Positions 6,355-59,418 of a stretch of DNA of 64,000 nt are shown here, in pieces. The notes below the pieces were generated by a model. It was given only the letters and a program-made list of their open reading frames with translations. It made no database searches and was not told the DNA's origin. Made by a program: the position numbers and the translations under genes. Source of the stretch: an uncultured Saprospiraceae bacterium (GTDB lineage Bacteria; Bacteroidota; Bacteroidia; Chitinophagales; Saprospiraceae); contig CALIIW010000265.1 in NCBI GenBank assembly GCA_938018185.1, forward strand, positions 1-64,000, read 5' to 3'. Position 1 is the stretch's first letter, and the number at the start of each line of letters is the position of its first letter.

Positions 6355-6538
6355 AAGAACGGCAAAGTTATAAATTTTAAAAAACCTCGCAATAGTAAGT
6401 TTTAAGATTACAATATTTAGCAAAGAATAGGCTAATACTTTGTATATTGTAAATAATTCGATATTAAAATTTCCTCTACGAAACTACTATATCCCCACTC
6501 TGGGGACCTATATTTTATTTAAAACGAAAACATTTTTA

Positions 6539-9500
6539 ATGAAAAACCATTTACTTGCAATCGCCATTTTGTGCCTATTTTCTATTAGTGCTTTTGCTCA
6601 AATAGAAACCATAAGCTTGTATCCTGAGAAAATTAAAGAATTACAAGCTAAAATTCGATCCAATGATCCTAAGGCAATTGAGTTGCCATTTATCTGCGGC
6701 CAAAAGCTTTCTTTAACTTTAAAACCCCATAATAGTTTTTCGGGAAAAATTAAGGATCAATTTCCAAATCATCACAACTATAGAGTAAGCTCTGTAGAGG
6801 ACCCACAGATTTCAGGTTTTTTACTAGACAGCCCAACTGGCATCTTTTATAATCTGAATACTTCTGAAGGCTTTGTTTCTTTTAGGCCAACTAAAAAGAA
6901 AAACACTTATCAACTTGAGAGAGGTTTTTCAGACGTCTTAGCAGATCATATTTGCGAAGTTGAAGAAGGTATAAAGCATGAACATGGGGCTGAAAGTAGA
7001 AGAGTGGATGTGCCATTTTCTCATGGAGAAATTTTAAGAATTTATCGAATGGCAATGATTGTCACAGGTGAATTTTATGAAAATAATGGAAACAATGATG
7101 ACGATGTTTTAAGTGTGGTTCAAGAAACACTTAATGGCTTAAATGCCATTTTCCAAAAAGAACTTGCTATAAATTTTGAAGTTGGTAACAGACTTCTTTT
7201 TTATACGGATAGGGAGAATGATCCATTTTTACCGGACCAAGCCGGAGGAGCATCTAGGCCTGAGCAAGCGAGTACTGTTATTAACGACAATTTTGAAGAT
7301 GACGAATTTGACATCGGACATATTCTACACAACACTTTTGACTCTGACGACTGGAGTGGTGGTGGTATTGCATCTTTGAGAGGGCTCTGTAGAAGTAATA
7401 AAGCAGCCGCATGGTCAGGATCTAGAAGGAATACCGGTAATAGCTGGATCCAATTATTTTCTCATGAAGTAGGACATCAGCTCGGTGCTAGCCATACTTT
7501 TAATGGGACAGGATCCAACTGCACCTCTGCTATTTCACTCAATAATGCCTATGAAATAGCAAGTGGAACTTCAATTATGTCTTATAGAGGAATTTGTGAT
7601 GCTATTTATAACATTCCTTATTCAGCAGATGTGGATAATTATTTTCATATTAATAGTTTGAATGCAATGATAGATCATGTAAATGATGCTGGAAATTGCA
7701 ACACAATTTTTGAAACAAATAACATTCCTCCAGACTTAGATATTAATCCATGTAATGTTGATTCTTATAGAATTCCGAAAAATACACCTTTTAAACTGAG
7801 GGCAAATGCAACAGACTTAAATGGCGACGTTATAAGCTATGCTTGGGAACAATATGATGAAGATGGAGTGGACGAAAAACCTACTCAAGGATTCATAGGT
7901 GACGAGGCTGCTAATTCAACATTAGCTCCCCTATTTAGAAACTATGCTCCGACAACAAATCCCGAACGAATCATTCCACCGATCGCTGACATTTTATCTG
8001 GTATTCAAAACCCATTCGAAGTCTTGCCCGCTGTAGAACGAAATATTACAATGCGCTTGACTGCAAGAGATAATTTTGAAGGTGGAGGAACAATCTCTGT
8101 CGATGAAATAAATATCTCAGTTGAAGATGGCCCATTAGAATTTGTAAGCCCTTCTGCCACGAATAATTTATATGAGGCAGGCAACAGTATGTTGATCGAG
8201 TGGAATGCAAATGGATCAGAATCACTTTGTGATAATGTAGATATTTATATTTCCTCTGATGGTGGATTTACATTCAACACGCCAATTGCAGAAGAGGTGC
8301 CTTTCTCAAATGGAAATTATACTTGGGACATTCCAGGTGGCTTGCAAGGCAGTGCAAACAATAGAATTAGAATAGAATGTGCAGATTATTCTTGTTTTAG
8401 TTTTTTCATCATTTCTGACGAGTTTGAAATTAATTCTGATTGTGAGGGGAATGCACATTTTATATGCAATGCTGATGACTTATTAGCACAAGAAGGCTCC
8501 GCCCTTTTGAACCTAGAATTAGAATCAGTAATTGGACAAAAAGCCTTAGGCGTAAATGTGTCAATAGATGACAATGATCCAAGTCAAGTTTTTATTAGAA
8601 CAGCACTAACTGGTGCATGTCAAATACCAACTTTCCCTAGTGGCAACCCTGTCTTCACTAATCATGAAGTTAGAAATTTCACTGTTGAAAGTACGGGAGT
8701 TTATACTTTTAGAAGGTTGTCTTCTGGGTTTTATTCTATATTTAATACTGATTTAATTTCATCTAGTGATCCTTGTGCTGGCTTTCTAGGATCAAATGCT
8801 TCCGAAGCAGCTAGCAACCCTGGAACAGTAACTACAAGTTCAAGCTCTACAGTCAGTGTTCAGTTAGAGGCTTGCGAAAACTATTCAATTTTATTCACCA
8901 CCTTTCAAACTCCTTTAGATATGGCAGTTGATGCTTCAGGAGCTGAAATTATCCAAATTAGTGATCTTCTAGAGGGAACAAGTTTTACCTATGTTGTTGT
9001 TGACATTCAATCTGATAAAGAGGAGGTTGTTTATATTTCAGAAACTGCTGATTTGCAAGATATAGATCAAGGATTTTATGAGGTCTATGGTGTACAATAT
9101 CAAGATCAATATGATCCAGAAACTTGGATTGGATTATCCTTTAGCGAAATATTAATAAAAGGAGATTGTTTCATTTCCGGGTCAAACAGTAAAGAGGTTA
9201 CTGTTCTTGATGATGGAATTGATCCTTGTGACGGTTTCTTCATTTTAACAGATAGTACTCCTTCTGATTGTGTGGAACCAAATGGTACTGCAAGTGTTCA
9301 GATAACAGAAGGGAATGCTCCTTTTGTCATTCAATGGAGCAATGGCATGACCGCTGCTACTATCTCAGGATTAACAGCCGGTACATACATGGTCACTGTA
9401 CTTGATGCAGAAAATTGCGTCAAGGAAGCTCAGGTACAAGTGGGACTTGCAGCTCCACTAGCAGTCGGAATATTAGAAAATGGTGGCATGTTAATCGCTC

Positions 9501-12500
9501 AAGTTTCTAATGGGTCTAATATGTATACTTATGAGTGGATCATAAACAATAGTCCTAGCATGGTCACTACAGAAAATATAGCCTTGCAGGAATCTGGAAC
9601 CTATATTGTTGTTGTTACGGATCTAGATTCAGGATGTATGAATAGTGCAACTTTTGAATATAACAATCCTTGTTCAGGATTAATGATAGAATCAAGCTTC
9701 AACAATCCTTCTTGTTTTGGAAGTAATGATGGAAATATTGTAATTGAAACAACTGGAGGCGAAGCACCTTACTCCTTCGATTGGAACGGATTGGGTACTA
9801 CTAATTCTTTGACGGATCTTGAAGCTGGCTTATACACTGTCGTTGTAACAGATGGAGCTAATTGTTCGGCTCAGTCAAGTTTTGAATTGACTAGCCCAGA
9901 TGAAATAGTATTGACATTAGAAAGCACCAATGAATCTAATTTGGGTGCCATGGATGGATCTGCAACAGTCAGTGTCACTGGCGGTACAGAGCCATATACT
10001 TATGAATGGTCAAACGGTACAAATACAGATAATATTACAAACTTAGAAGTTGGGGAATACTGTGTCAGTGTAACAGATGCAAATGATTGTATCGCAGAAG
10101 CATGTATTGAAATTGAAGCAGGCGCAGATCCTTGTACAGATTTTACTATTGAAGTTGAATCAAATGATGCTACTTGTTTTGACATTTCAGATGGTACGGC
10201 AATGGTTACAACTACAGGAGGTTTAGAGCCTTTTGAATATTTCTGGAGTCATTCTGTATCTGGACAGATGGTGGAAAATTTAGCACCTGGTGATTATGAG
10301 GTTACAGTAATTGACGCTAACAATTGTGAAGCGATTGAATCAATTGAAATTACACAACCTACGGAATTAGAGCTTGCACTTGAAAAAGAAAATGAAAGTA
10401 CCTTAAATGCAGCAGATGGTTCTGCAGAAACCATTGTTGGTGGAGGAACAGAACCATATACTTATGAATGGAGCAATGCAGCAGTCACTGCAAGTATTGA
10501 CATGCTTGAACCAGGTCAGTATTGCGTAACAATAACTGATGCAAATGATTGTACGATTCAAGATTGTATTACTGTTATTGAAGGAACTAATCCTTGTTCA
10601 GATTTTACCCTAGAATTTGTTAGTTCAGATATTTCTTGTTTTGATTTTGCAAACGGAACTGCCATAGCAAATCCAAGTGGAGGTATGGAACCATATACTT
10701 ATGAATGGTCTAATGGTGAAACATCCATGGCTGTAAATGATCTTGTTGCCGGTTTATACCAAGTGACTGTTTTGGATGCTAATAATTGTGAGTTAATCGA
10801 AATTTTTGAAATTGCAGAACCAGAAGAACTCGATTTACAGCTTAGCGCAACAAATGAAACCATTCTAAATGGAAGCGATGGTACAGCTACAGCCGATGCA
10901 AATGGTGGTTCAGGAGATTTTATATACTTATGGTCAAATGATGAAACAACAGCAAGCATAAGCATGCTCGCTCCGGGTCTTTATTGCGTCACTGCTACAG
11001 ATCAAGGTTTGGATTGTGATGTAGAAGATTGTATCAGAGTTGAAGCAGGAGCAGATCCATGCGTAGATTTTGAACTTTTAATCTCTACTGAAAATGTTAC
11101 TTGTTTCGGATCAGAAGATGGTACCGCTGTCGCGGAATCTACTGATGGAATGGCACCTTACACCTATGAGTGGAGCAATGGTTCTACTGAAATATCAAAC
11201 TCAGGTCTTGCCGCTGGAATATATTCTGTGACTGTAACTGATGCAAATGATTGCACAGCAACTGAAGAAGTTGAAATACTTGAAGCAGATGAATTGATTG
11301 TAAAGGTAGAGACTACGGATGAATCTTCTTTAATGTCTAATGATGGTTCTGCTATGGCAACTGCTTCAGGTGGTATGGGAGATTATAGCTATGAATGGTC
11401 AAATGGCGAAACTATACAGAGCTTTATTGATCTTGCTGCGGGAGAATATTGTGTCACCGTAACGGACATGCTTGGTTGTACGGCAGAGGCCTGTGGAGAA
11501 GTGCTTCCTGGAGACGATCCTTGTGCAGATTTTATTATAGTACCAATTGTAACACAAGCTACCTGTTTTGGTTTTGAAGACGGGTCTGTGGTAATAGAAA
11601 CTTCTGCAGGAACAGAGCCTTTTACTTTTGAGTGGAGTCATGATGTTTCTGGTCAAACAGTTAGTGATCTTGCTGCAGGAACTTATACTGTTACTGTTAC
11701 AGACGCAAATGACTGTGTGTTAATAGATGAAATTGAAATAGGCCAAAATGAAGAACTTGTTCTTGAGATAAATACTACCAATGAATCTTCTTTAATGGCT
11801 GCAGATGGAACTGCTACTGCTGTAGTTAGTTCAGATTCAGAGCCATATACTTTTGTTTGGTCTAATGGAGAAACTACAGAAAGTATCTCAGCATTAAGCC
11901 CTGGTGAGTACTGTGTCACTGTTACGGACGAGGCAAGCTGTACGGTAGAAGCTTGTATAGAAATTTTAGCTGGAGAAGATCTTTGTGGAGACTTTAGCAT
12001 AAGTGCAGGCATAGAGCTAAGTTCTTGCTTTGGTTTGGATGAAGGCGCTGCGCTTGTTGAAATCACTGGCGGCGCAGAACCTTTCACTATTGAATGGAGT
12101 AATGGTGAATCAGAACAAGTGATACTTGACCTTCCAATTGGTATTTATTCTGTTACTGTAACTGATGCCAACGATTGTGTTTTAACAGATGAAGTTGAGA
12201 TTATACAAAACGAAGAACTCCTATTAGAAATTACAATAATAAATGAGTCTGCTTTAATGTCCGCAGATGGTGCTGCCGTTGCAATCGTATCTGGAGGAAC
12301 GGCGCCATACACCTATCTATGGTCAAACGGAAATAACACCCCCGAACTAAGTGGTCTGGATGTGGGAGAATACTGTGTTACTATCACAGATAACCTCGGT
12401 TGTACTACCGAAGCTTGTGGTGAGGTGCTTGCGGGAGATGATGCTTGTGCTGACTTTAGTATAAATGTTTCTGCAGAAAATGCACCTTGTTTTGGACTTG

Positions 12501-14779
12501 ATGGTGGTGCTGCTGTTGTTGAAGTTAATGGAGGTTTAGAACCTTTCACTTATGAATGGTCAAATGGCGAAACGGATCAATTGATAGCTGATTTAGCAAT
12601 CGGTACTTACTCCGTTACTGTTATTGACGCAAATGACTGTATTTTAATAGATGAACTTGAGATCACTCAAAGTGAAGAACTGATAATAGAAATCACAACG
12701 CTTGATGAATCCGCACTTATGGCAGCAGATGGTTCTGCTAAGGCAATGGTTTCTGGTGGTACCGAACCTTATACTTATGAATGGTCAAACGGAAATGACA
12801 CTGATGAGATAATTAATCTAGACGCAGGAGAATACTGTGTTACTATCACAGACAACTTTGGTTGTTCAATCGAAGCTTGTGGCGAAGTACTTGCAGGAGA
12901 TGATCTTTGTGCAGACTTCAGCATTGGTGTTTCTGCAGAGAATGCACCTTGTTTTGGTTTCGATGATGGAGCTGCTGTTGTTGAAGTAACAGGAGGCACA
13001 GAGCCTTTCACTTTTGCATGGAGCAATGGTGAATCAGAGCAACTGATACTTGGACTTGCCATCGGTGTTTATACTGTTACTGTAACCGATGCAAACGATT
13101 GTCTTTTGACGGATGAAGTTGAGATCACTCAAAGTGAAGAACTGCTTTTAGAAATTGTAACGATTAATGAGTCTTCTCTTATGTCAGCAGATGGCTCTGC
13201 TAATGTAATGGTTTCTGGTGGTTCTGAACCTTATACTTATGTCTGGTCAAACGGAGACGTGACGGAAGAAATTAATAATCTAGGAGCTGATGAATACTGT
13301 GTAACTGTTACGGACAACTTCGGTTGTACTGCAGAAGCTTGTGGCGAAATACTTGCAGGAGATAATCCTTGTGTCGGATTTGAACTTTCTATTAGTGGAA
13401 CGGATGTAAATTGTTTTGGGGGTACTGACGGTTCCGCCGCAGTTTCTGCTACTGGTGGGACAGAGCCATATACTTATGCTTGGTCCAACGGACAAAACAT
13501 GGCTAGTGCTTCTGATCTAATTGCTGGTAACTATACAGCAACAGTAACAGACGCCAATGGATGTAGTGCAGCGTCTACTATTGATATTCAGCAAGCTGCT
13601 GCAATTTCTTTTACTCCTATCATACAATCGAACGAAACTTCTGCCGGGGCTAATGACGGGCAAATAAGCATTGCAGTGAATGGTGGAAGTCTACCTTATT
13701 CATTTGAATGGTCTAATGGTGAAACGGAGGGCAATATAGTTGGACTTTCTGCAGGCAGTTATACCGTTACTATCATAGATGGTAATGATTGCATGGCAGA
13801 AGAAACTTTTACAATTAGTACCGATGGAACAAGTAGCGGAATGGCTACCGTTCAATTCATCCATGCAGCTATGGACGAAACAGTATCGATAGATTCAGAT
13901 CAAGGTATGATCTTACCATACTTTGCAAATACAATGACAACCGCACCTATGGAAGTTCCAGCTGGTCAAAATATGCAATTAACTTTAACGCCATTAAACT
14001 TCTGGTCAAATTCTGGTCCAGCAAATGTCACTGCTAGCTTTGAAGCAGGCAAGACTTATGTTGCAATCTTTTATGGAACATTTGATGAATCTGACAACTA
14101 CCCTGTTGGCATTGCAATCAAGGAACACAATTTTGGAACATTTGGAAATAATGAAGTTTTCTTTGACTTCTTCCACGGGGCTCACGAAACACCGAGTTTA
14201 AGCTTAACTAACAACAATGATTTAGAATTGGGACAAACAGCTTATGGATCTTTTGCTACTACCACTGATCTTGCAAATGTTGCAAAAGCGTTCAAGCTGG
14301 ATCTTCACGATGCCGATGTTGAAGAATTAATCAATAGTTATTGGGCAGATTTTACTTGGTGGAAAACCAGATCCGCCGTATTATTCACGCAGGGTACCTT
14401 GTCTGAAAAAGGTGGACTTGAACTGTGGGTAGCACTAGCCGATGGAGGAGCTTACAGATTAAATGGCTACTACTTTGTTGGTGGTCGCCGTATAGGAACA
14501 ACGGGCGCAGACGCAACTGAAGGAGATCGTTTATCAATTGCCCCTAATCCTGCCAAGCAAACGCCTAATGTCAAACTTGAATTGATGGAACGATCTGATG
14601 TAGATATGCTCATTTATCACTCTAGTGGTAAACTCGTTTATAGAAATAGCTTTGCTGATCTGGGTGAAGGCATTCACGATTTGACTCCTTTAAATTTAAA
14701 TTTAGGGACTGGCAATTATTTTGTTGAGTTGAAGACGAACAGAGGGAAACATCTTGTTCCTGTGATAATTGTTGAATAG
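6539..14779 (+). CDS. Giant T9SS-secreted zinc metalloprotease with SprB repeats, DUF4397-like domain and sorting domain
   Basis: 2,746 residues from the ATG at 6539 (MKNHLLAIAILCLFSISAFAQ, a clear signal peptide); the frame is open 33 codons further up but those codons would spoil the signal. Residues 309-319 read HEVGHQLGASH, the HExxHxxGxxH zinc site of reprolysin/metzincin peptidases, with a Met-turn candidate in GTSIMSYRG. A PKD/Ig-like region follows. Then come about 20 SprB-type modules (PYTYEWSNG...GEYCVTVTDANDC...EACIEI), the last part arranged as a two-module unit of 154 residues. Near the C-terminus, VQFIHAAMDETVSID resembles DUF4397. The final 80 residues (SIAPNPAKQTPNV...LVYRNSF...GNYFVELKTNRGKHLVPVIIVE) are a type A T9SS sorting domain. 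It should be exported across the outer membrane and anchored or released. An adhesin-protease role is inferred. Confidence 0.92.
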   Translation: MKNHLLAIAILCLFSISAFAQIETISLYPEKIKELQAKIRSNDPKAIELPFICGQKLSLTLKPHNSFSGKIKDQFPNHHNYRVSSVEDPQISGFLLDSPTGIFYNLNTSEGFVSFRPTKKKNTYQLERGFSDVLADHICEVEEGIKHEHGAESRRVDVPFSHGEILRIYRMAMIVTGEFYENNGNNDDDVLSVVQETLNGLNAIFQKELAINFEVGNRLLFYTDRENDPFLPDQAGGASRPEQASTVINDNFEDDEFDIGHILHNTFDSDDWSGGGIASLRGLCRSNKAAAWSGSRRNTGNSWIQLFSHEVGHQLGASHTFNGTGSNCTSAISLNNAYEIASGTSIMSYRGICDAIYNIPYSADVDNYFHINSLNAMIDHVNDAGNCNTIFETNNIPPDLDINPCNVDSYRIPKNTPFKLRANATDLNGDVISYAWEQYDEDGVDEKPTQGFIGDEAANSTLAPLFRNYAPTTNPERIIPPIADILSGIQNPFEVLPAVERNITMRLTARDNFEGGGTISVDEINISVEDGPLEFVSPSATNNLYEAGNSMLIEWNANGSESLCDNVDIYISSDGGFTFNTPIAEEVPFSNGNYTWDIPGGLQGSANNRIRIECADYSCFSFFIISDEFEINSDCEGNAHFICNADDLLAQEGSALLNLELESVIGQKALGVNVSIDDNDPSQVFIRTALTGACQIPTFPSGNPVFTNHEVRNFTVESTGVYTFRRLSSGFYSIFNTDLISSSDPCAGFLGSNASEAASNPGTVTTSSSSTVSVQLEACENYSILFTTFQTPLDMAVDASGAEIIQISDLLEGTSFTYVVVDIQSDKEEVVYISETADLQDIDQGFYEVYGVQYQDQYDPETWIGLSFSEILIKGDCFISGSNSKEVTVLDDGIDPCDGFFILTDSTPSDCVEPNGTASVQITEGNAPFVIQWSNGMTAATISGLTAGTYMVTVLDAENCVKEAQVQVGLAAPLAVGILENGGMLIAQVSNGSNMYTYEWIINNSPSMVTTENIALQESGTYIVVVTDLDSGCMNSATFEYNNPCSGLMIESSFNNPSCFGSNDGNIVIETTGGEAPYSFDWNGLGTTNSLTDLEAGLYTVVVTDGANCSAQSSFELTSPDEIVLTLESTNESNLGAMDGSATVSVTGGTEPYTYEWSNGTNTDNITNLEVGEYCVSVTDANDCIAEACIEIEAGADPCTDFTIEVESNDATCFDISDGTAMVTTTGGLEPFEYFWSHSVSGQMVENLAPGDYEVTVIDANNCEAIESIEITQPTELELALEKENESTLNAADGSAETIVGGGTEPYTYEWSNAAVTASIDMLEPGQYCVTITDANDCTIQDCITVIEGTNPCSDFTLEFVSSDISCFDFANGTAIANPSGGMEPYTYEWSNGETSMAVNDLVAGLYQVTVLDANNCELIEIFEIAEPEELDLQLSATNETILNGSDGTATADANGGSGDFIYLWSNDETTASISMLAPGLYCVTATDQGLDCDVEDCIRVEAGADPCVDFELLISTENVTCFGSEDGTAVAESTDGMAPYTYEWSNGSTEISNSGLAAGIYSVTVTDANDCTATEEVEILEADELIVKVETTDESSLMSNDGSAMATASGGMGDYSYEWSNGETIQSFIDLAAGEYCVTVTDMLGCTAEACGEVLPGDDPCADFIIVPIVTQATCFGFEDGSVVIETSAGTEPFTFEWSHDVSGQTVSDLAAGTYTVTVTDANDCVLIDEIEIGQNEELVLEINTTNESSLMAADGTATAVVSSDSEPYTFVWSNGETTESISALSPGEYCVTVTDEASCTVEACIEILAGEDLCGDFSISAGIELSSCFGLDEGAALVEITGGAEPFTIEWSNGESEQVILDLPIGIYSVTVTDANDCVLTDEVEIIQNEELLLEITIINESALMSADGAAVAIVSGGTAPYTYLWSNGNNTPELSGLDVGEYCVTITDNLGCTTEACGEVLAGDDACADFSINVSAENAPCFGLDGGAAVVEVNGGLEPFTYEWSNGETDQLIADLAIGTYSVTVIDANDCILIDELEITQSEELIIEITTLDESALMAADGSAKAMVSGGTEPYTYEWSNGNDTDEIINLDAGEYCVTITDNFGCSIEACGEVLAGDDLCADFSIGVSAENAPCFGFDDGAAVVEVTGGTEPFTFAWSNGESEQLILGLAIGVYTVTVTDANDCLLTDEVEITQSEELLLEIVTINESSLMSADGSANVMVSGGSEPYTYVWSNGDVTEEINNLGADEYCVTVTDNFGCTAEACGEILAGDNPCVGFELSISGTDVNCFGGTDGSAAVSATGGTEPYTYAWSNGQNMASASDLIAGNYTATVTDANGCSAASTIDIQQAAAISFTPIIQSNETSAGANDGQISIAVNGGSLPYSFEWSNGETEGNIVGLSAGSYTVTIIDGNDCMAEETFTISTDGTSSGMATVQFIHAAMDETVSIDSDQGMILPYFANTMTTAPMEVPAGQNMQLTLTPLNFWSNSGPANVTASFEAGKTYVAIFYGTFDESDNYPVGIAIKEHNFGTFGNNEVFFDFFHGAHETPSLSLTNNNDLELGQTAYGSFATTTDLANVAKAFKLDLHDADVEELINSYWADFTWWKTRSAVLFTQGTLSEKGGLELWVALADGGAYRLNGYYFVGGRRIGTTGADATEGDRLSIAPNPAKQTPNVKLELMERSDVDMLIYHSSGKLVYRNSFADLGEGIHDLTPLNLNLGTGNYFVELKTNRGKHLVPVIIVE
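10127..13363 (+). repeat. Seven tandem coding repeats, period 462 nt (154 aa)
   Basis: Repeat starts marked by the codons for D/N-P/L/A-C-x-D/G-F fall at 10127, 10589, 11054, 11516, 11978, 12440, 12902 and 13364. The spacings are 462, 465, 462, 462, 462, 462 and 462 nt. Each unit holds two SprB-like modules, an A-type (CFG.DDGAAVVEVTGG) and a B-type (NESSLMSADGSA..VSGG..PYTY). Units starting at 11978, 12440 and 12902 look most alike, as expected from recent duplication. Confidence 0.9.
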
Positions 14780-43988: not shown

Positions 43989-44441
43989 TTATTCTTTTTG
44001 TTTGCTATCTATCCAGATTGTCACTGGGCCATCATTCAATAATTGAACTTTCATATCCGCCCCAAAGATTCCTGTTCCTATTTCTTTGCCAAAGTTAGTC
44101 TTTAATTGCTCTACAAATTTTTCATATAATGGAATCGCCACCTCTGGTCTTGCCGCTTTTATATAAGAAGGTCTATTTCCTTTTTTTGTACTTGCGTGTA
44201 AAGTAAATTGGCTTACCACAATTATATCCCCATCAATATCACGAACTGATTTGTTCATAATCCCCTTTTCATCATTAAATATCCGAAGATTAAGCACCTT
44301 ATTACACAACCATTCAATGTCCTGCTCCACATCTTCATTTTCCACACCTAATAATATTAACAGGCCTTCTTCTATTTGAGAGACAATTTCATAATCGACT
44401 GTTACTGAGGCTTCTTTTACCCTTTGTATGAGTATTCTCAT
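43989..44441 (-). CDS. dtd: D-aminoacyl-tRNA deacylase
   Basis: 150 residues from the ATG at 44441 (MRILIQRVKEASVTV), the normal start and length; an ATG seven codons earlier (MWIKKKR) is less likely. Dtd hydrolyses D-amino acids wrongly attached to tRNA. The active-site motifs are SQFTLHASTKKGNRPSY and a GP-cis motif in NDGPVTIWID. It is the first gene of the dtd-rlmN unit and borders the proposed replication origin. Confidence 0.96.
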   Translation of the reverse strand: MRILIQRVKEASVTVDYEIVSQIEEGLLILLGVENEDVEQDIEWLCNKVLNLRIFNDEKGIMNKSVRDIDGDIIVVSQFTLHASTKKGNRPSYIKAARPEVAIPLYEKFVEQLKTNFGKEIGTGIFGADMKVQLLNDGPVTIWIDSKQKE

Positions 44442-44462
44442 CCGCTTTTTTTTAATCCACAT

Positions 44463-44850
44463 TCATTATGTGAATAACTGTTAATTTAGGCTTACTTATC
44501 AACAATGACTGTCCTCTTTTTATCCTTAAAACTCAAGGGCAATATCTTCATTGAATTTTAGACATAAAATATCGATTTATACACCTCAGACTAAATCCTT
44601 GTCCTAATATATATATCAACTTCTACTTATTCACAGCTAAAACTGTGTAATTGTTGACAAACTGCTTATAATGCTGCCTGTCAACTAGTTAACCAGTGTC
44701 ATATGGTGTTAATAAGCATGTGAGTTTCGTTAACAACGTAATTTAATAACTTAATTTCATTTGTTTTTCAACGAATTAACACCACTGATGATGATAATAG
44801 ATGATTTATATTAAAAAAAAATTATCATTATTAAGAATATGACAAAAAAG
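44463..44850. other. Candidate chromosome replication origin (oriC)
   Basis: This gene-free region lies between divergent dtd and ctaA. DnaA-box matches (TTATNCACA): perfect TTATTCACA at 44469-44477 (minus) and 44627-44635 (plus); one mismatch at 44496-44504 (TTATCAACA) and 44707-44715 (TTATTAACA on the minus strand). A perfect TTATCCACA lies just beyond in ctaA (45450-45458). From about 44741 to 44850 the DNA is very AT-rich with GATGATGATAAT, suitable as an unwinding element. Three parS-like sites lie 6-10 kb to the right. dnaA is not nearby. Single boxes also occur by chance elsewhere in the window, so the cluster rather than any one box is the evidence. Confidence 0.5.
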
Positions 44851-44904
44851 TGAAGAGAGAAAAAAGAAAATTTTGGCTCTTAATTGTTTACTTTAAAAAA
44901 GAAA

Positions 44905-45969
44905 ATGTTGGAAGTAAAAAATCCTGTCAAAATTTGGTTGATCATTGGACTCGTTTTGATTTTTGTACAAATCATAATTGGAGGCATTACACGATTGACA
45001 GATTCCGGTTTATCTATAACGGAGTGGGAAATCATCAAAGGAACTATTCCTCCATTGAATGAGCAGAGTTGGATGGACGCTTTTGATAAATATAAACTTT
45101 CTGCAAAGAAGCAGCATGAGAGTCTTCATGCTGATATGTCCTTAAAGGAATTTAAGAAAATATATTTTTGGGAATGGTTCCACAGATTATGGGCCAAGAG
45201 TATGGGATTTATTTTCTTGTTTCCATATTTATTTTTTTTATACAAAAAGATGATGCCTCTTTGGCTTAGCAAAAGATTGGGCATTGTTATTCTCCTTGCG
45301 GTCTCTGTTGCTGTATTTGGATGGATCATGGTCGCCTCTGGTTTAAATGAAGATAATAGAACCTGGGTTTCGGCTTATAAGTTATTAACACATCTAATTT
45401 TAGCCAGCATTCTTTTTGGATATTTATTTTGGACCTGGCTAAAAGCGTCTTATCCACAGGCTTTAGTATATCAAGACAAAAAATTACGAGTATTTTCTAG
45501 AATTGTTGTTGCTGTAGTCTTGTTTCAAATTGCTTTAGGAGCTCTTATGGCTGGTATGCGCGCTGGTTTATTACATCCTTACTTTCCAATGTTTATAAAG
45601 TTTGAAAATCTGTTAGCATCGCTTACAATGGATTCTGCTGATTTATCTGATAAAGTAATTAATTACGAAACAGGAACATATATGAAAGGGATTGTCCAAA
45701 TTGCACATCGTTCAATGGCATATATTCTATGTTTTCTGATACCAATTTTTTATTTCAAGTGTAAACGCTTGTTTCATTTTCAAAAAGTCAGACTTACCAA
45801 CAACTTGTTAGTAAGCATGTTAGTAATTCAGTTTATTCTTGGAGTCCTTACTATTATTAATTGTTTTGGTAAAATTCCGATTGTTTATGGGGTATTACAT
45901 CAGGCTGGCGCCCTTCTTTTATTGATAATATCCTTGTCTTGCGCTTATTTTTTAAGAAAAAATGATTAA
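44905..45969 (+). CDS. ctaA: Haem A synthase (COX15/CtaA family)
   Basis: A 354-residue inner-membrane enzyme that oxidises haem O to haem A for cytochrome oxidases. It has about eight helices in two four-helix halves, with haem-coordinating His in FWEWFHRLWAKSMGFIFLFPYL and in QIAHRSMAYILCFL, plus THLILASILFGYLFW and VLHQAGALLLLIISL. The motif GGITRLTDSGLSITEWEIIKGTIPPL is the COX15 signature. The ATG at 44905 is preferred over an upstream TTG. The partner ctaB and oxidase genes are not in the window. Confidence 0.92.
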   Translation: MLEVKNPVKIWLIIGLVLIFVQIIIGGITRLTDSGLSITEWEIIKGTIPPLNEQSWMDAFDKYKLSAKKQHESLHADMSLKEFKKIYFWEWFHRLWAKSMGFIFLFPYLFFLYKKMMPLWLSKRLGIVILLAVSVAVFGWIMVASGLNEDNRTWVSAYKLLTHLILASILFGYLFWTWLKASYPQALVYQDKKLRVFSRIVVAVVLFQIALGALMAGMRAGLLHPYFPMFIKFENLLASLTMDSADLSDKVINYETGTYMKGIVQIAHRSMAYILCFLIPIFYFKCKRLFHFQKVRLTNNLLVSMLVIQFILGVLTIINCFGKIPIVYGVLHQAGALLLLIISLSCAYFLRKND

Positions 45970-49335: not shown

Positions 49336-51843
49336 CTAAAAACGAAATTGAAAAGACGGTTGGGGCAAGAATTTATATATATCGGGATTTTCTAAATATG
49401 ATAATCTCCAAGTAAAGTCTATTCTCCCTAATTTAAAAATATTCTCAATTCCAAAGCCGGTTTCGTAATACGGTTGTTGAATTGGAAAACTTGTATTTGG
49501 ATAAGCAAACTTTTGTCTGTCAAAGGATTTTGACAACTTTCCAAAATATGCTTTTCCAAAAATAAAAAGTCGCCATTTTAAATTTTTGATAAGTGGAACT
49601 TTGTTTAAAATCAACCCTTCAAAATGATGGGTTAAATGTATACTAGCATATTCATCACTAATAAATTCTACATAGTTCATTAAATTAAAAGCTACTGCAT
49701 CATTGAGGATGGATTGATTTCCGAAGGGTACTGTCAAATATGGATATGGAACTTGCCCCCATATTTTACCTATTTCAATTCTGTAATCTAAATAGCCAAT
49801 TTTCCTAAATCTTTGTTGATGTTCAATTCTTATTCTCAATTTTTGAAAATCTAAAGCTTCTTTTTGAAAAGACGAAAAAGAAGTATTAAGTGCTAAAGAA
49901 ATTACTGGATATCTTAACATAAATAGCTTCGAAGTATTTTCTTCAAATCCTGAATTTATATTTTTCTCCTCAAAGGCAAATCTTAAAGACAGATTAATAC
50001 CACTTGTTTTATAATCTCTTTTAATAATCTCATTATTAGTATCTATTTCGTACTCAATGAAGGTCGTATTCCCATATGGGTTTATTTCTTCATTATAGAA
50101 TGAAAGTTTGCTCAGCATTCCAGTGAACCATTGCCTTTCGAAAAATATTTCTGCACCTGTCTTAAAGATTCTATTATTAAAAGCAGATGTTGTTAGAAGA
50201 GAGGTGAGAATATGATCAATAGGCATTATGTTATAACTACGACCTATTTGTTCTATGTCTTTTTTATAAGAAAGACCAATACGATTGCTAGCTGTTTTTG
50301 ATTTGGCAAACTGATAGCTCAAACTACCAGCATATTTATATCTTTCGTCCTTAAAACCATATGCTCCATATGCAGAAATTTTTAAATCGGGGCTAAAATT
50401 TTTATTTGTTCTAAAGCCAATTTTAGCCCTTGAACCTTCAAATTCATTTTGACTATAGAAGCTAAATACATGACCAATATCTATTGGACCTACTGGCAAC
50501 CATCCTGTACCGATTAATGTAAACAGGCTTTTAATTACTTTAAAATTATTTGATTGTTCAATACTATCAACAAGAACGGCAATGTTGGTTTCTTCCTTGC
50601 TCAAACTATCCACTCGATAGTTAGTCCAAAAGGATTCAGACCGAATATGTGAACTATCAGTAATGCTCGTAGTTTCTATTGATTTAAAATACTTTTTATC
50701 TATCGACTTATTTATTTGATGATCTTTATACTTACTATACCTTCTTCCAAAGAAACCTGTGAGTTCAGTGGCATTTTCTGCAACTGTAAAGTCTGCTAAA
50801 ACATAAGATTCATCATTGACCCATTTACCAGCTGATGTTTGTTTATAGTTCATTTTGAGATAAAAACTTCTTACAAAATTCACATTAGCATCAATGCTAA
50901 AAGTTAGTTCAACTTTATTGACACCAAATGTTTCCTCTTCTATAAAGATTCTTCCAGTGAATGCAACGTCAGATGTTCCACGTGGAATAAATTTGATGTT
51001 ATGGCAACTTTTGCCATTAATGATTTCTTTATCATCGGCCAGATAATACCGATAATGTTGGCCTAGGTTTTTATTTAAAGGGCTTGGAAAATTTTTATTA
51101 AGTATTACCAGAAAATCCTCATAGACATTTGGGTTTAGATATAGTTCTTCTATAAATTCCTCAATTTTAGGCCCTTTAAAAAATTGCAATGTCTTTTGTC
51201 CTTGAATTACTTCTTTATAGGATTTTGGTTTTTTTCTAAAATAATGATCTCTAACATTTTCTTTCAAAAGAAAAGGTAAATATTTGACACCATTTGCCAT
51301 CGAATCTTGATACTCCCAAATAAAAGGAAAAGGCTTAAATAAAAAGTTCTTTTTAATTTTTTCAGTAAAGTTGTTTAGATCAAATTGGACTTTATTGTAA
51401 GAGCTGTACGAAATAGATTCATACTGTTCTGGATTGTTCTCTGATTTTCTGGCAATGGCCTCTTTTAATATATCATAGGCTGGGTCTTCTCCAGCAATTA
51501 CAACAATTTCGTCAAGGGCGTAATCAGCAGAAGTTAAAATTATATTTATTTCTTGAGAAACGTATTTAGTGATGAAAGTGTCTTTTGTTTCATAACCTAT
51601 TATTCCTGCAGAAAGTGTATCATGGCCTTCACTTGTCTGTATCGTATAAGAGCCTAGTTCATCTGTTGTAACCCCTATAGTTGTTCCTTTAAAATAGACA
51701 TTACAAAAGCCAATAGGGCTGCCTGAAGCCTTATCCGTCACTCTTCCATAAATCAGTGTTTCTTGTGCATCAATTGAAGTACTGGAGGAACAGAATATAA
51801 GCGTCAGAAAAAAATAAAAACTAGATTGGTAAATAAATTGCAA
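49336..51843 (-). CDS. DUF5686-family outer-membrane protein with CarboxypepD-like domain
   Basis: 835 residues. After a signal peptide (FYFFLTLIFCSSSTSIDAQ), residues 27-110 form a carboxypeptidase regulatory-like beta-sandwich (IYGRVTDKASGSPIGFCNVYFKGTTIGVTTDELGSYTI). Then come the DUF5686 region (PAYDILKEAIARKSENNPEQYESISYSSYNKVQFDLNN, FIPRGTSDVAFTGRIFIEEETFGVNKVEL) and a C-terminal beta-barrel ending in an aromatic Phe (FLPQPSFQFRF). Function unknown; such proteins are common in Bacteroidota envelopes. A ParB-type site lies inside the coding sequence at 50974-50989. It is read toward the M1 gene with a 127-bp gap. Confidence 0.88.
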   Translation of the reverse strand: MQFIYQSSFYFFLTLIFCSSSTSIDAQETLIYGRVTDKASGSPIGFCNVYFKGTTIGVTTDELGSYTIQTSEGHDTLSAGIIGYETKDTFITKYVSQEINIILTSADYALDEIVVIAGEDPAYDILKEAIARKSENNPEQYESISYSSYNKVQFDLNNFTEKIKKNFLFKPFPFIWEYQDSMANGVKYLPFLLKENVRDHYFRKKPKSYKEVIQGQKTLQFFKGPKIEEFIEELYLNPNVYEDFLVILNKNFPSPLNKNLGQHYRYYLADDKEIINGKSCHNIKFIPRGTSDVAFTGRIFIEEETFGVNKVELTFSIDANVNFVRSFYLKMNYKQTSAGKWVNDESYVLADFTVAENATELTGFFGRRYSKYKDHQINKSIDKKYFKSIETTSITDSSHIRSESFWTNYRVDSLSKEETNIAVLVDSIEQSNNFKVIKSLFTLIGTGWLPVGPIDIGHVFSFYSQNEFEGSRAKIGFRTNKNFSPDLKISAYGAYGFKDERYKYAGSLSYQFAKSKTASNRIGLSYKKDIEQIGRSYNIMPIDHILTSLLTTSAFNNRIFKTGAEIFFERQWFTGMLSKLSFYNEEINPYGNTTFIEYEIDTNNEIIKRDYKTSGINLSLRFAFEEKNINSGFEENTSKLFMLRYPVISLALNTSFSSFQKEALDFQKLRIRIEHQQRFRKIGYLDYRIEIGKIWGQVPYPYLTVPFGNQSILNDAVAFNLMNYVEFISDEYASIHLTHHFEGLILNKVPLIKNLKWRLFIFGKAYFGKLSKSFDRQKFAYPNTSFPIQQPYYETGFGIENIFKLGRIDFTWRLSYLENPDIYKFLPQPSFQFRF
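50974..50989. other. parS-like ParB-binding site 1 (15/16)
   Basis: TGTTCCACGTGGAATA differs from the exact parS TGTTCCACGTGGAACA only at position 15. It lies within the DUF5686 gene, where the complementary strand encodes P-R-G-T. Confidence 0.7.
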
Positions 51844-54386: not shown

Positions 54387-54402
54387 TGTTCCACGTGGAA
54401 CA
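54387..54402. other. parS ParB-binding site 2 (exact, in a 40-bp palindrome)
   Basis: TGTTCCACGTGGAACA is an exact parS sequence. It is the centre of a perfect 40-bp palindrome (54375-54414) with AT-rich arms. The palindrome ends 1 nt before the thrC stop codon, in the 99-bp gap before the acyltransferase gene, so it might also act as a hairpin for thr transcripts. Confidence 0.88.
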
Positions 54403-54415
54403 TTTTATATATACT

Positions 54416-55726
54416 TTATTTGTTTTGAAGAAGCCAAGATTTAAAATTTTCAAAGGATGTAGAAAGCAAAACTGCTTCTTTCTTCTTATCTAACACGGCA
54501 CAAAGGCTTTCAGGGATGTTTATTTTTTTATTTAGAGCCTCTTCTACATCGCTTAAAAATTTTGCAGGGTGGGCTGTCTCTAATATGATTCCTTGACTGT
54601 TCTTTATATAGCTTTGGTATTGGCGATAAGCCAAATACCCTATAGCGCCGTGAGGATCTATTGTATAGTCGTATAGCGCATCAACTTCCTTTATAGCTGC
54701 TCTTGTGTAGGCATCAGAAAACCTAAAGCCTTTAATGTCCATTCTCATATTGTTCCACGTGGAACCAAGTCCAGAATATATATTCTTTAATCGTCCAAAA
54801 TTGGACGGATTCCCAACATCCATTGCATTAGACATTGTTCTTACGGATGCTTTAGGGATGAATTCTCCGGATTCTAAGTATGTAGGAATAACATCATTTG
54901 CATTGGTTGCAGCTAAAAAATGCTTGACAGGTAGCCCCATTTCTTTAGCAAATACTCCAGCGGTTAAGTTTCCAAAGTTTCCACTAGGGATAGAAAAGAC
55001 AACATCGTTCTCTTTTGTAGGAAGCTGTTTGTAGGCTTCAAAGTAATAAAATGATTGAGGAATTAATCTTGCAATATTTATAGAGTTGGCAGAACTAAGT
55101 CTTATTTTTTCTCTGATGTCTAAATCTAAAAAAGCTTGCTTAACCATTGCTTGACAGTCATCAAAGGTTCCTTCTATCTCTAAAGCAGTTATATTTTTAC
55201 CTAAGGTCGTAAGTTGTTTTTCTTGGATATCACTTACTTTTCCTGAAGGGTATAGGATTACTACTTCCACACCAGGGGTGTTATAAAAACCAGCAGCAAC
55301 TGCTCCTCCGGTATCTCCTGAAGTTGCAACCAGTATTGTAAGTGTTGTATTTTGGTACTCATTGTAGTGACCCATCAGTTGAGCCATAAATCTTGCACCA
55401 AAATCTTTAAATGCCATGGATGGGCCATGAAACAACTCAAGAACGAAGGTATGGTCATCTAAGGCCACAATTGGCGCAGGAAAGTTAATGGCATTGTCTA
55501 TTATTCTTTTAATCGTATGGTCTTCTAAAGAATCTCCAATTAAGTGCTTACTTACTTCATATGAGATCTCTTTGAAAGTCATACTTTCTAAAGAGACAAA
55601 GAAAGACTTATTTAGTTTTTCAATCCCTGCGGGCATAAAGAGCCCATTGTCATCAGGTAAACCTTTCATGACAGCTTCTTCCAAGCTAAAAAAGCTTGTT
55701 TTGTTTTTTGTGCTATATAGTCTCAT
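54416..55726 (-). CDS. thrC: Threonine synthase
   Basis: A 436-residue PLP enzyme making L-threonine from O-phosphohomoserine. The PLP lysine lies in FHGPSMAFKDFGARF; further marks are TILVATSGDTGGAVAAGF, FSIPSGNFGNLTAG and LAATNANDVIP. The C-terminal DPHGAIGYLAYRQY and ILETAHPAKF are typical. It is last in thrA-thrB-thrC; its ATG overlaps the thrB stop by 1 nt. A ParB-type site lies inside the gene and another, exact, just after it. Confidence 0.96.
   Translation of the reverse strand: MRLYSTKNKTSFFSLEEAVMKGLPDDNGLFMPAGIEKLNKSFFVSLESMTFKEISYEVSKHLIGDSLEDHTIKRIIDNAINFPAPIVALDDHTFVLELFHGPSMAFKDFGARFMAQLMGHYNEYQNTTLTILVATSGDTGGAVAAGFYNTPGVEVVILYPSGKVSDIQEKQLTTLGKNITALEIEGTFDDCQAMVKQAFLDLDIREKIRLSSANSINIARLIPQSFYYFEAYKQLPTKENDVVFSIPSGNFGNLTAGVFAKEMGLPVKHFLAATNANDVIPTYLESGEFIPKASVRTMSNAMDVGNPSNFGRLKNIYSGLGSTWNNMRMDIKGFRFSDAYTRAAIKEVDALYDYTIDPHGAIGYLAYRQYQSYIKNSQGIILETAHPAKFLSDVEEALNKKINIPESLCAVLDKKKEAVLLSTSFENFKSWLLQNK
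54751..54766. other. parS-like ParB-binding site 3 (15/16)
   Basis: TGTTCCACGTGGAACC differs from exact parS only at the last base. It is inside thrC, where the minus strand encodes G-S-T-W-N, a different frame from the site in the DUF5686 gene. Confidence 0.72.
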
Positions 55727-59134: not shown

Positions 59135-59418
59135 TTGAAATCGATTTATTGTAAATGAAGATAAGCCCTGTAGATGCTAGGCTTCCACAAGACAAATCAT
59201 ATTTAATTTAAAATGCAAGTATATACCTTAAAAATCACGCCAATAACTGCGGTAAAAATCTGTACCTAAGCATAATAAATAGGAAGGCATTCTTGAAATT
59301 TGCAAAAGCATAAACTAAAAACCATACTTTTATTCAAATTTGCTCTCGGGCTTCGTGACAAACAACAATGATTCACGTACTAAGCTTTAGTTGATTTAAA
59401 ATGTAAATTGAAATTAAT

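Follow-up and report, generated by a model that had tools for sequence, protein, structure and literature searches.

A candidate chromosomal replication origin beside ctaA in an uncultured Saprospiraceae bacterium

The classical bacterial origin lies in the intergenic region between dnaA and dnaN. Adjacency to dnaA is common among origins but is not required, and in Bacteroidota it is not a defining feature. For Prevotella intermedia OMA14, an origin was predicted at the skew switch, away from dnaA and with multiple DnaA boxes, and the authors of that work describe origins away from dnaA as common in Bacteroidota (PMC4755523). In Mariniflexile litorale, the predicted origin is likewise situated at the GC-skew switch and off dnaA (PMC11278836). 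In the basal unwinding system (BUS), a DnaA box, in many cases with a weaker one behind it, precedes a spacer whose length peaks at 10-13 bp and trinucleotides that have a constant middle adenine and are read 3'-NAN-5'; the published search rule tolerates at most 2 mismatches in the box (PMC8287927). The string "Bacteroid-" is absent from the text of that study (Pelliciari et al., 2021; PMC8287927). Origins off dnaA in Bacteroidota (PMC4755523) and the BUS are already known. Among the matches inspected in text searches of open-licence papers, a scope outside which DoriC lies, neither an oriC at ctaA nor a family-wide element was found.

The 64-kb stretch of DNA analyzed here (hereafter the window) comes from a Saprospiraceae bacterium. 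An initial annotation had singled out the gap between dtd and ctaA as the best origin candidate in the window. This choice is supported by a cluster of DnaA boxes, a conserved single-copy element, the skew of relatives and the neighboring parS sites, and the gap very probably forms the core of the chromosomal oriC of this bacterium (probability about 0.93).

The dtd-ctaA gap and its DnaA boxes

The candidate region is a divergent gap, and its 460-bp extent assumes that Dtd starts at MRIL (44444). The coordinates first given for the region proved correct on re-check, and the 460 bp do lack a gene, as had been reported. The gap and its gene order are common to many relatives.

43989..44444, minus strand: dtd, D-aminoacyl-tRNA deacylase, left of the gap (TIGR00256, E 3e-59)
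44445..44904, no strand: gene-free dtd-ctaA divergent gap, 460 bp, candidate oriC core with the top DnaA-box cluster
44905..45969, plus strand: ctaA/COX15-type heme A synthase, right of the gap (NF045570, E 6e-65, under the model's own cut-off)

Elsewhere in the window, a plus-strand open reading frame (6440-14779, 2779 aa) contains many similar repeats and resembles the repeat-rich surface proteins of gliding Bacteroidota.

A box scan of the gap and the adjoining ctaA gene gave the following DnaA boxes.

44453..44461, plus strand: DnaA-box-like TAATCCACA, one mismatch
44469..44477, minus strand: DnaA box TTATTCACA, exact
44496..44504, plus strand: DnaA-box-like TTATCAACA, one mismatch
44577..44585, plus strand: DnaA-box-like TTATACACC, one mismatch
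44627..44635, plus strand: DnaA box TTATTCACA, exact
44707..44715, minus strand: DnaA-box-like TTATTAACA, one mismatch to TTATNCACA
45450..45458, plus strand: DnaA box TTATCCACA within ctaA, its exact position not strictly conserved in the family

The two perfect boxes of the initial annotation (44469-44477 and 44627-44635) and its perfect TTATCCACA at 45450 in ctaA were recovered. Its two one-mismatch boxes are present too, but the count was too low, as the gap has four relative to TTATNCACA (44453, 44496, 44577 and 44707). The cluster is above chance, as is expected of an oriC: the 500-bp box score is 12 at the gap, the highest in the window (runner-up 6), and first-order Markov simulation of the window, run 300 times, never gave this value (mean of the maxima 5.4, largest 11). 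The whole window contains 8 exact boxes against 3.3 expected, a number attained by 1 of 100 shuffles.

Across the family, exact boxes reach a density of 2.21/kb over the 600 bp preceding ctaA, 0.44/kb inside the gene and 1.86/kb over the 130 bp that follow it, compared with 0.034/kb in sampled DNA away from the origin; boxes inside ctaA are enriched across the family. In that 600-bp upstream stretch, 78 of 120 loci have at least one exact box and 42 have none. Single boxes shift position among relatives, and their positions are not kept even within the genus of the window. Conservation of the boxes, which had been proposed as a check, holds for the enrichment upstream of ctaA and for the 44-bp element described below, but not for individual boxes. 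Two exact DnaA boxes separated by 10-14 bp are found 10-80 bp past the ctaA stop codon in L016, L017, L022, L028, L127, L139, L150 and L178; the same interval in the window has no exact box. Because of these paired boxes directly downstream and the boxes inside the gene, the sequences suggest that the Saprospiraceae origin spans ctaA, having boxes before, within and after the gene.

A conserved 44-bp element and its gene neighbors

An alignment of ctaA-upstream DNA covering 119 family members revealed a conserved element composed of two degenerate DnaA boxes, a short spacer and trinucleotide repeats, followed by AT-rich DNA.

44762..44805, plus strand: putative conserved 44-bp unwinding element, family consensus nnTTTATCnACAAATTAACAnCnCTAATGATGATnG..TTTTT
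44765..44773, plus strand: degenerate first box TTTTCAACG, three mismatches, family consensus TTATCnACA
44773..44781, plus strand: degenerate second box GAATTAACA, four mismatches, family consensus AAATTAACA
44785..44799, plus strand: DnaA-trio-like repeat CTG ATG ATG ATA ATA, lower strand 3'-NAN-5' throughout
44799..44842, no strand: AT-rich DUE candidate, containing an inverted copy of the trio repeat at 44821-44832 (inverted repeat I12)

The initial annotation had noted an AT-rich flank with GATGATGATAAT. This sequence is present at 44787-44798, but it belongs to the conserved element as its trinucleotide portion and is not a plain flank. Easily melted AT-rich DNA, another expected feature of an oriC, adjoins the boxes, and the 60 bp from 44790 rank fourth least stable in the window. 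The inverted copy of the trio repeat (ATGATGATAAT / ATTATCATTAT, 44788-44798 and 44821-44831, 22 bp apart) flanks the AT-rich stretch, and ATTATTAAT-type stretches also come after the trios in relatives. A reading of GATGATGAT as a canonical 3'-GAT-5' trio was rejected on account of its opposite polarity, the lower strand being 3'-GAC TAC TAC TAT TAT-5'.

Of 119 family loci, about 111 have the element ahead of ctaA, usually 100-250 bp before the gene, and in 8 its score is under the profile cut-off. It is also present in Lewinella cohaerens, Neolewinella and Aureispira (Saprospiraceae). With a weight matrix trained without the genus of the window, the window copy scores 39.3 bits and the second-best place in the window 0.4; in long samples of relatives' DNA (3.1 million strand-positions), more than 20 bits was reached only at nine sites upstream of ctaA. 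A profile model built from 46 relatives, all outside this genus, has one match only in the bacterium's own 5-Mb genome, the window copy (E 1.9e-7). When Chitinophagales were scanned, 88 of 199 genomes were positive, each with exactly one match; with the stricter filters used, 111 of the 199 gave none.

The genes beside the element vary. In G569 (L362), it lies between dtd and a hydrolase gene at a locus without ctaA, which makes a ctaA promoter very improbable. A single match was also obtained in each of five genomes where ctaA escaped detection, a count subject to the incompleteness of MAGs. In a sister family within the order, the element adjoins nadA. Elements adjoining nadA were seen in other Chitinophagales families (L293, L294, L296-L298, L304, L346, L347, L352, L356-L358, L365 and L367), and the nadA side is probably the location of the origin there. 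In two other Bacteroidota families, the element is situated between dnaA and dnaN (L302, L321 and L319). The match in L302 is strong (E 1e-4); in the phylum-wide scan, matches above E 1e-3 were not relied on, with the exception of three weaker ones at dnaA-dnaN, in L319 and L321. Since the profile was made from ctaA-side copies only, its matches in dnaA-dnaN gaps mean that it recovers origins of the known type.

The matches in family f5 (L315-L317, E about 0.003) were set aside, as they resemble coding DNA at a gene start. The Lutibacter ctaA loci (L283, L285 and L287) lack the element, so placement at ctaA is not phylum-wide. BUS-like elements with TTATCCACA boxes were also observed in other Bacteroidota families beside genes for a competence-type protein and an AMP-binding enzyme (L307, L309 and L312); these are possible origins. 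On balance, we lean toward the wider view that in much of Bacteroidota the origin is marked by a single-copy, BUS-like element of ~44 bp, whose neighbors have changed between families (ctaA, nadA, dnaA-dnaN), with the Saprospiraceae origin extended over ctaA.

GC skew, parS and the placement of the origin

The bacterium's own genome is a MAG of 345 contigs. Because of this fragmentation, skew was tested in four near-complete relatives, the global skew being sampled in 20-kb stretches. In every one of these genomes (G057, G062, G127 and G125), the sign goes from minus to plus where ctaA lies, as is expected at an oriC; the bacterium's own contig gives a local view only. In contiguous 60-80-kb stretches, the cumulative-skew minimum lies 265 bp from the element in G062, 301 bp in G057, 14.6 kb in G127 and 19.4 kb in G125. 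G125 is the weakest case because two sampled stretches of plus sign precede the switch. In two complete genomes of the sister family, the skew switches at the nadA-side element, clearly in G414 and weakly in G182.

Within the window, the raw cumulative skew is lowest near 60 kb. This local minimum was rejected as a sign of the origin because a third-codon fit attributed it to gene direction; in that fit, the residual is clearly worse at 59.25 kb (115.8) than at 44.75 kb (92.3). A change point in the window is supported (permutation p 0.016, gene direction as covariate), and the direction-corrected third-codon skew favors 49.3 kb for it and ranks 44.8 kb next. The GC-skew check proposed in the initial annotation is thus borne out by the switch at ctaA in the four relatives, but the window itself does not put the gap first.

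A parS scan found three sites in the window.

50974..50989, no strand: parS-like site, one mismatch
54387..54402, no strand: parS, exact palindrome TGTTCCACGTGGAACA
54751..54766, no strand: parS-like site, one mismatch

They lie 6-10 kb from the gap, as had been noted, and the proximity is kept in relatives, where parS matches occur within about 30 kb of ctaA wherever both share a contig; parS in the vicinity is a further expected feature of an oriC. The parB gene (G000:C284 and relatives) is distant from parS and from the origin in complete relatives, unlike the common arrangement of parAB near the origin.

The initial annotation also rightly stated that dnaA is not adjacent: the gene is on a separate contig (C162) in this genome and far off in complete relatives. 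DnaA itself retains the GGRDHSTV motif. Of 9 genomes, 8 lack an exact box at the dnaA locus, no element match was found at dnaA in the family genomes scanned, and the sampled stretches of near-complete relatives have no change of skew sign there. Genome records usually assign the origin to dnaA. Those of G057, G062 and G125 contig 1 are numbered from this gene, with the skew-based origin about 2.0-3.8 Mb off; such records would mislead tools that take dnaA as the mark of the origin.

These observations also bear on what else the gap might be. DnaA can serve as a transcription factor at its boxes, and in most of the family the element precedes ctaA by about 100-250 bp, which would suit a regulatory region of ctaA and/or dtd, acting as a promoter or in DnaA-controlled expression, with no origin involved. 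Such a role is very unlikely to be the whole explanation, given that the element persists in G569 without ctaA and once in each of the five genomes where ctaA was undetected, that it stands at nadA in the sister family and at dnaA-dnaN elsewhere, and that the skew switches at it. Only a shade less improbable is an origin elsewhere in the region, for example in the divergent gap at 59135-59418 or at ~49.2 kb, the dtd-ctaA gap then being an accessory cluster for DnaA binding or titration. In its favor are the raw skew minimum, situated near 60 kb at a point where genes also diverge in direction, and the direction-corrected optimum at 49.3 kb; the poorer third-codon fit at 59.25 kb, the absence of exact boxes near 49 and 59 kb, the failure to find a second element in the genome and the minima at most 301 bp from the element in G057 and G062 speak against it.

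An origin at dnaA would agree with the numbering of three of the four near-complete relatives. With the skew data contradicting it, and with neither the element nor, in 8 of 9 genomes, an exact box at dnaA, this is by far the least probable placement. The dtd-ctaA gap therefore remains the preferred location of the origin core.

Proposed initiation and comparison with described origins

By analogy with the BUS, DnaA would bind at the dtd-ctaA gap, the DNA would unwind and replication would start there. DnaA supplied from its distant locus may bind the box cluster (44453-44715) as well as the weak tandem pair (44765-44781), and then polymerize on one strand along the trinucleotide repeats, starting at 44785. 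The AT-rich DNA at about 44785-44842 would melt and receive the helicase, and two forks would depart in opposite directions. ParB bound to the parS sites 6-10 kb off would segregate the new origins, and the boxes inside and just past ctaA may extend the origin in this family.

If the wider view is true, sequence alone would suffice to call origins in fragmented genomes. With the dtd-ctaA gap as origin core, the origin of the large and mostly uncultured Saprospiraceae is placed beside ctaA, and records numbered from dnaA misplace it. The short profile locates the origin in draft genomes, allowing origin-based estimates of growth rate and analyses of replication strands, and DnaA-trio unwinding in Bacteroidota becomes straightforward to test.

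The element resembles the Bacillus subtilis type of BUS in its tandem boxes, with the better match upstream, in the AT-rich DNA past the trios and in its spacer of 11 bp, which is inside the published 10-13 peak. In element columns, the first box occupies 4-12 and the trios begin at 24; columns 25, 28 and 31, which hold the middle T of trios one to three (complement of the middle adenine), are invariant in the 46 relatives. The repeat at 44785-44799 thus contains three or more NAN trios whose middle base is conserved, as a BUS does. The trios past the first differ from the described ones, being mainly 3'-TAC/TAT-5' and not GAT. Within 16 bp of the trios, the window has no box with 2 or fewer mismatches (TTTTCAACG has 3 and GAATTAACA has 4), although several relatives have one, such as TTATCCACG in L016 and TTATCCACA in L160. 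Since the degenerate boxes of the window fail the published rule, the element is best described as BUS-like and not as a strict BUS, and it may work in a similar way. The dnaA-dnaN intergenic origins carry the same element, whereas in Saprospiraceae it is situated at ctaA with dnaA distant. As in P. intermedia OMA14 and M. litorale, the skew switches with dnaA elsewhere; those origins are single-genome Ori-Finder calls, whereas the present one is marked by a family-wide element beside ctaA.
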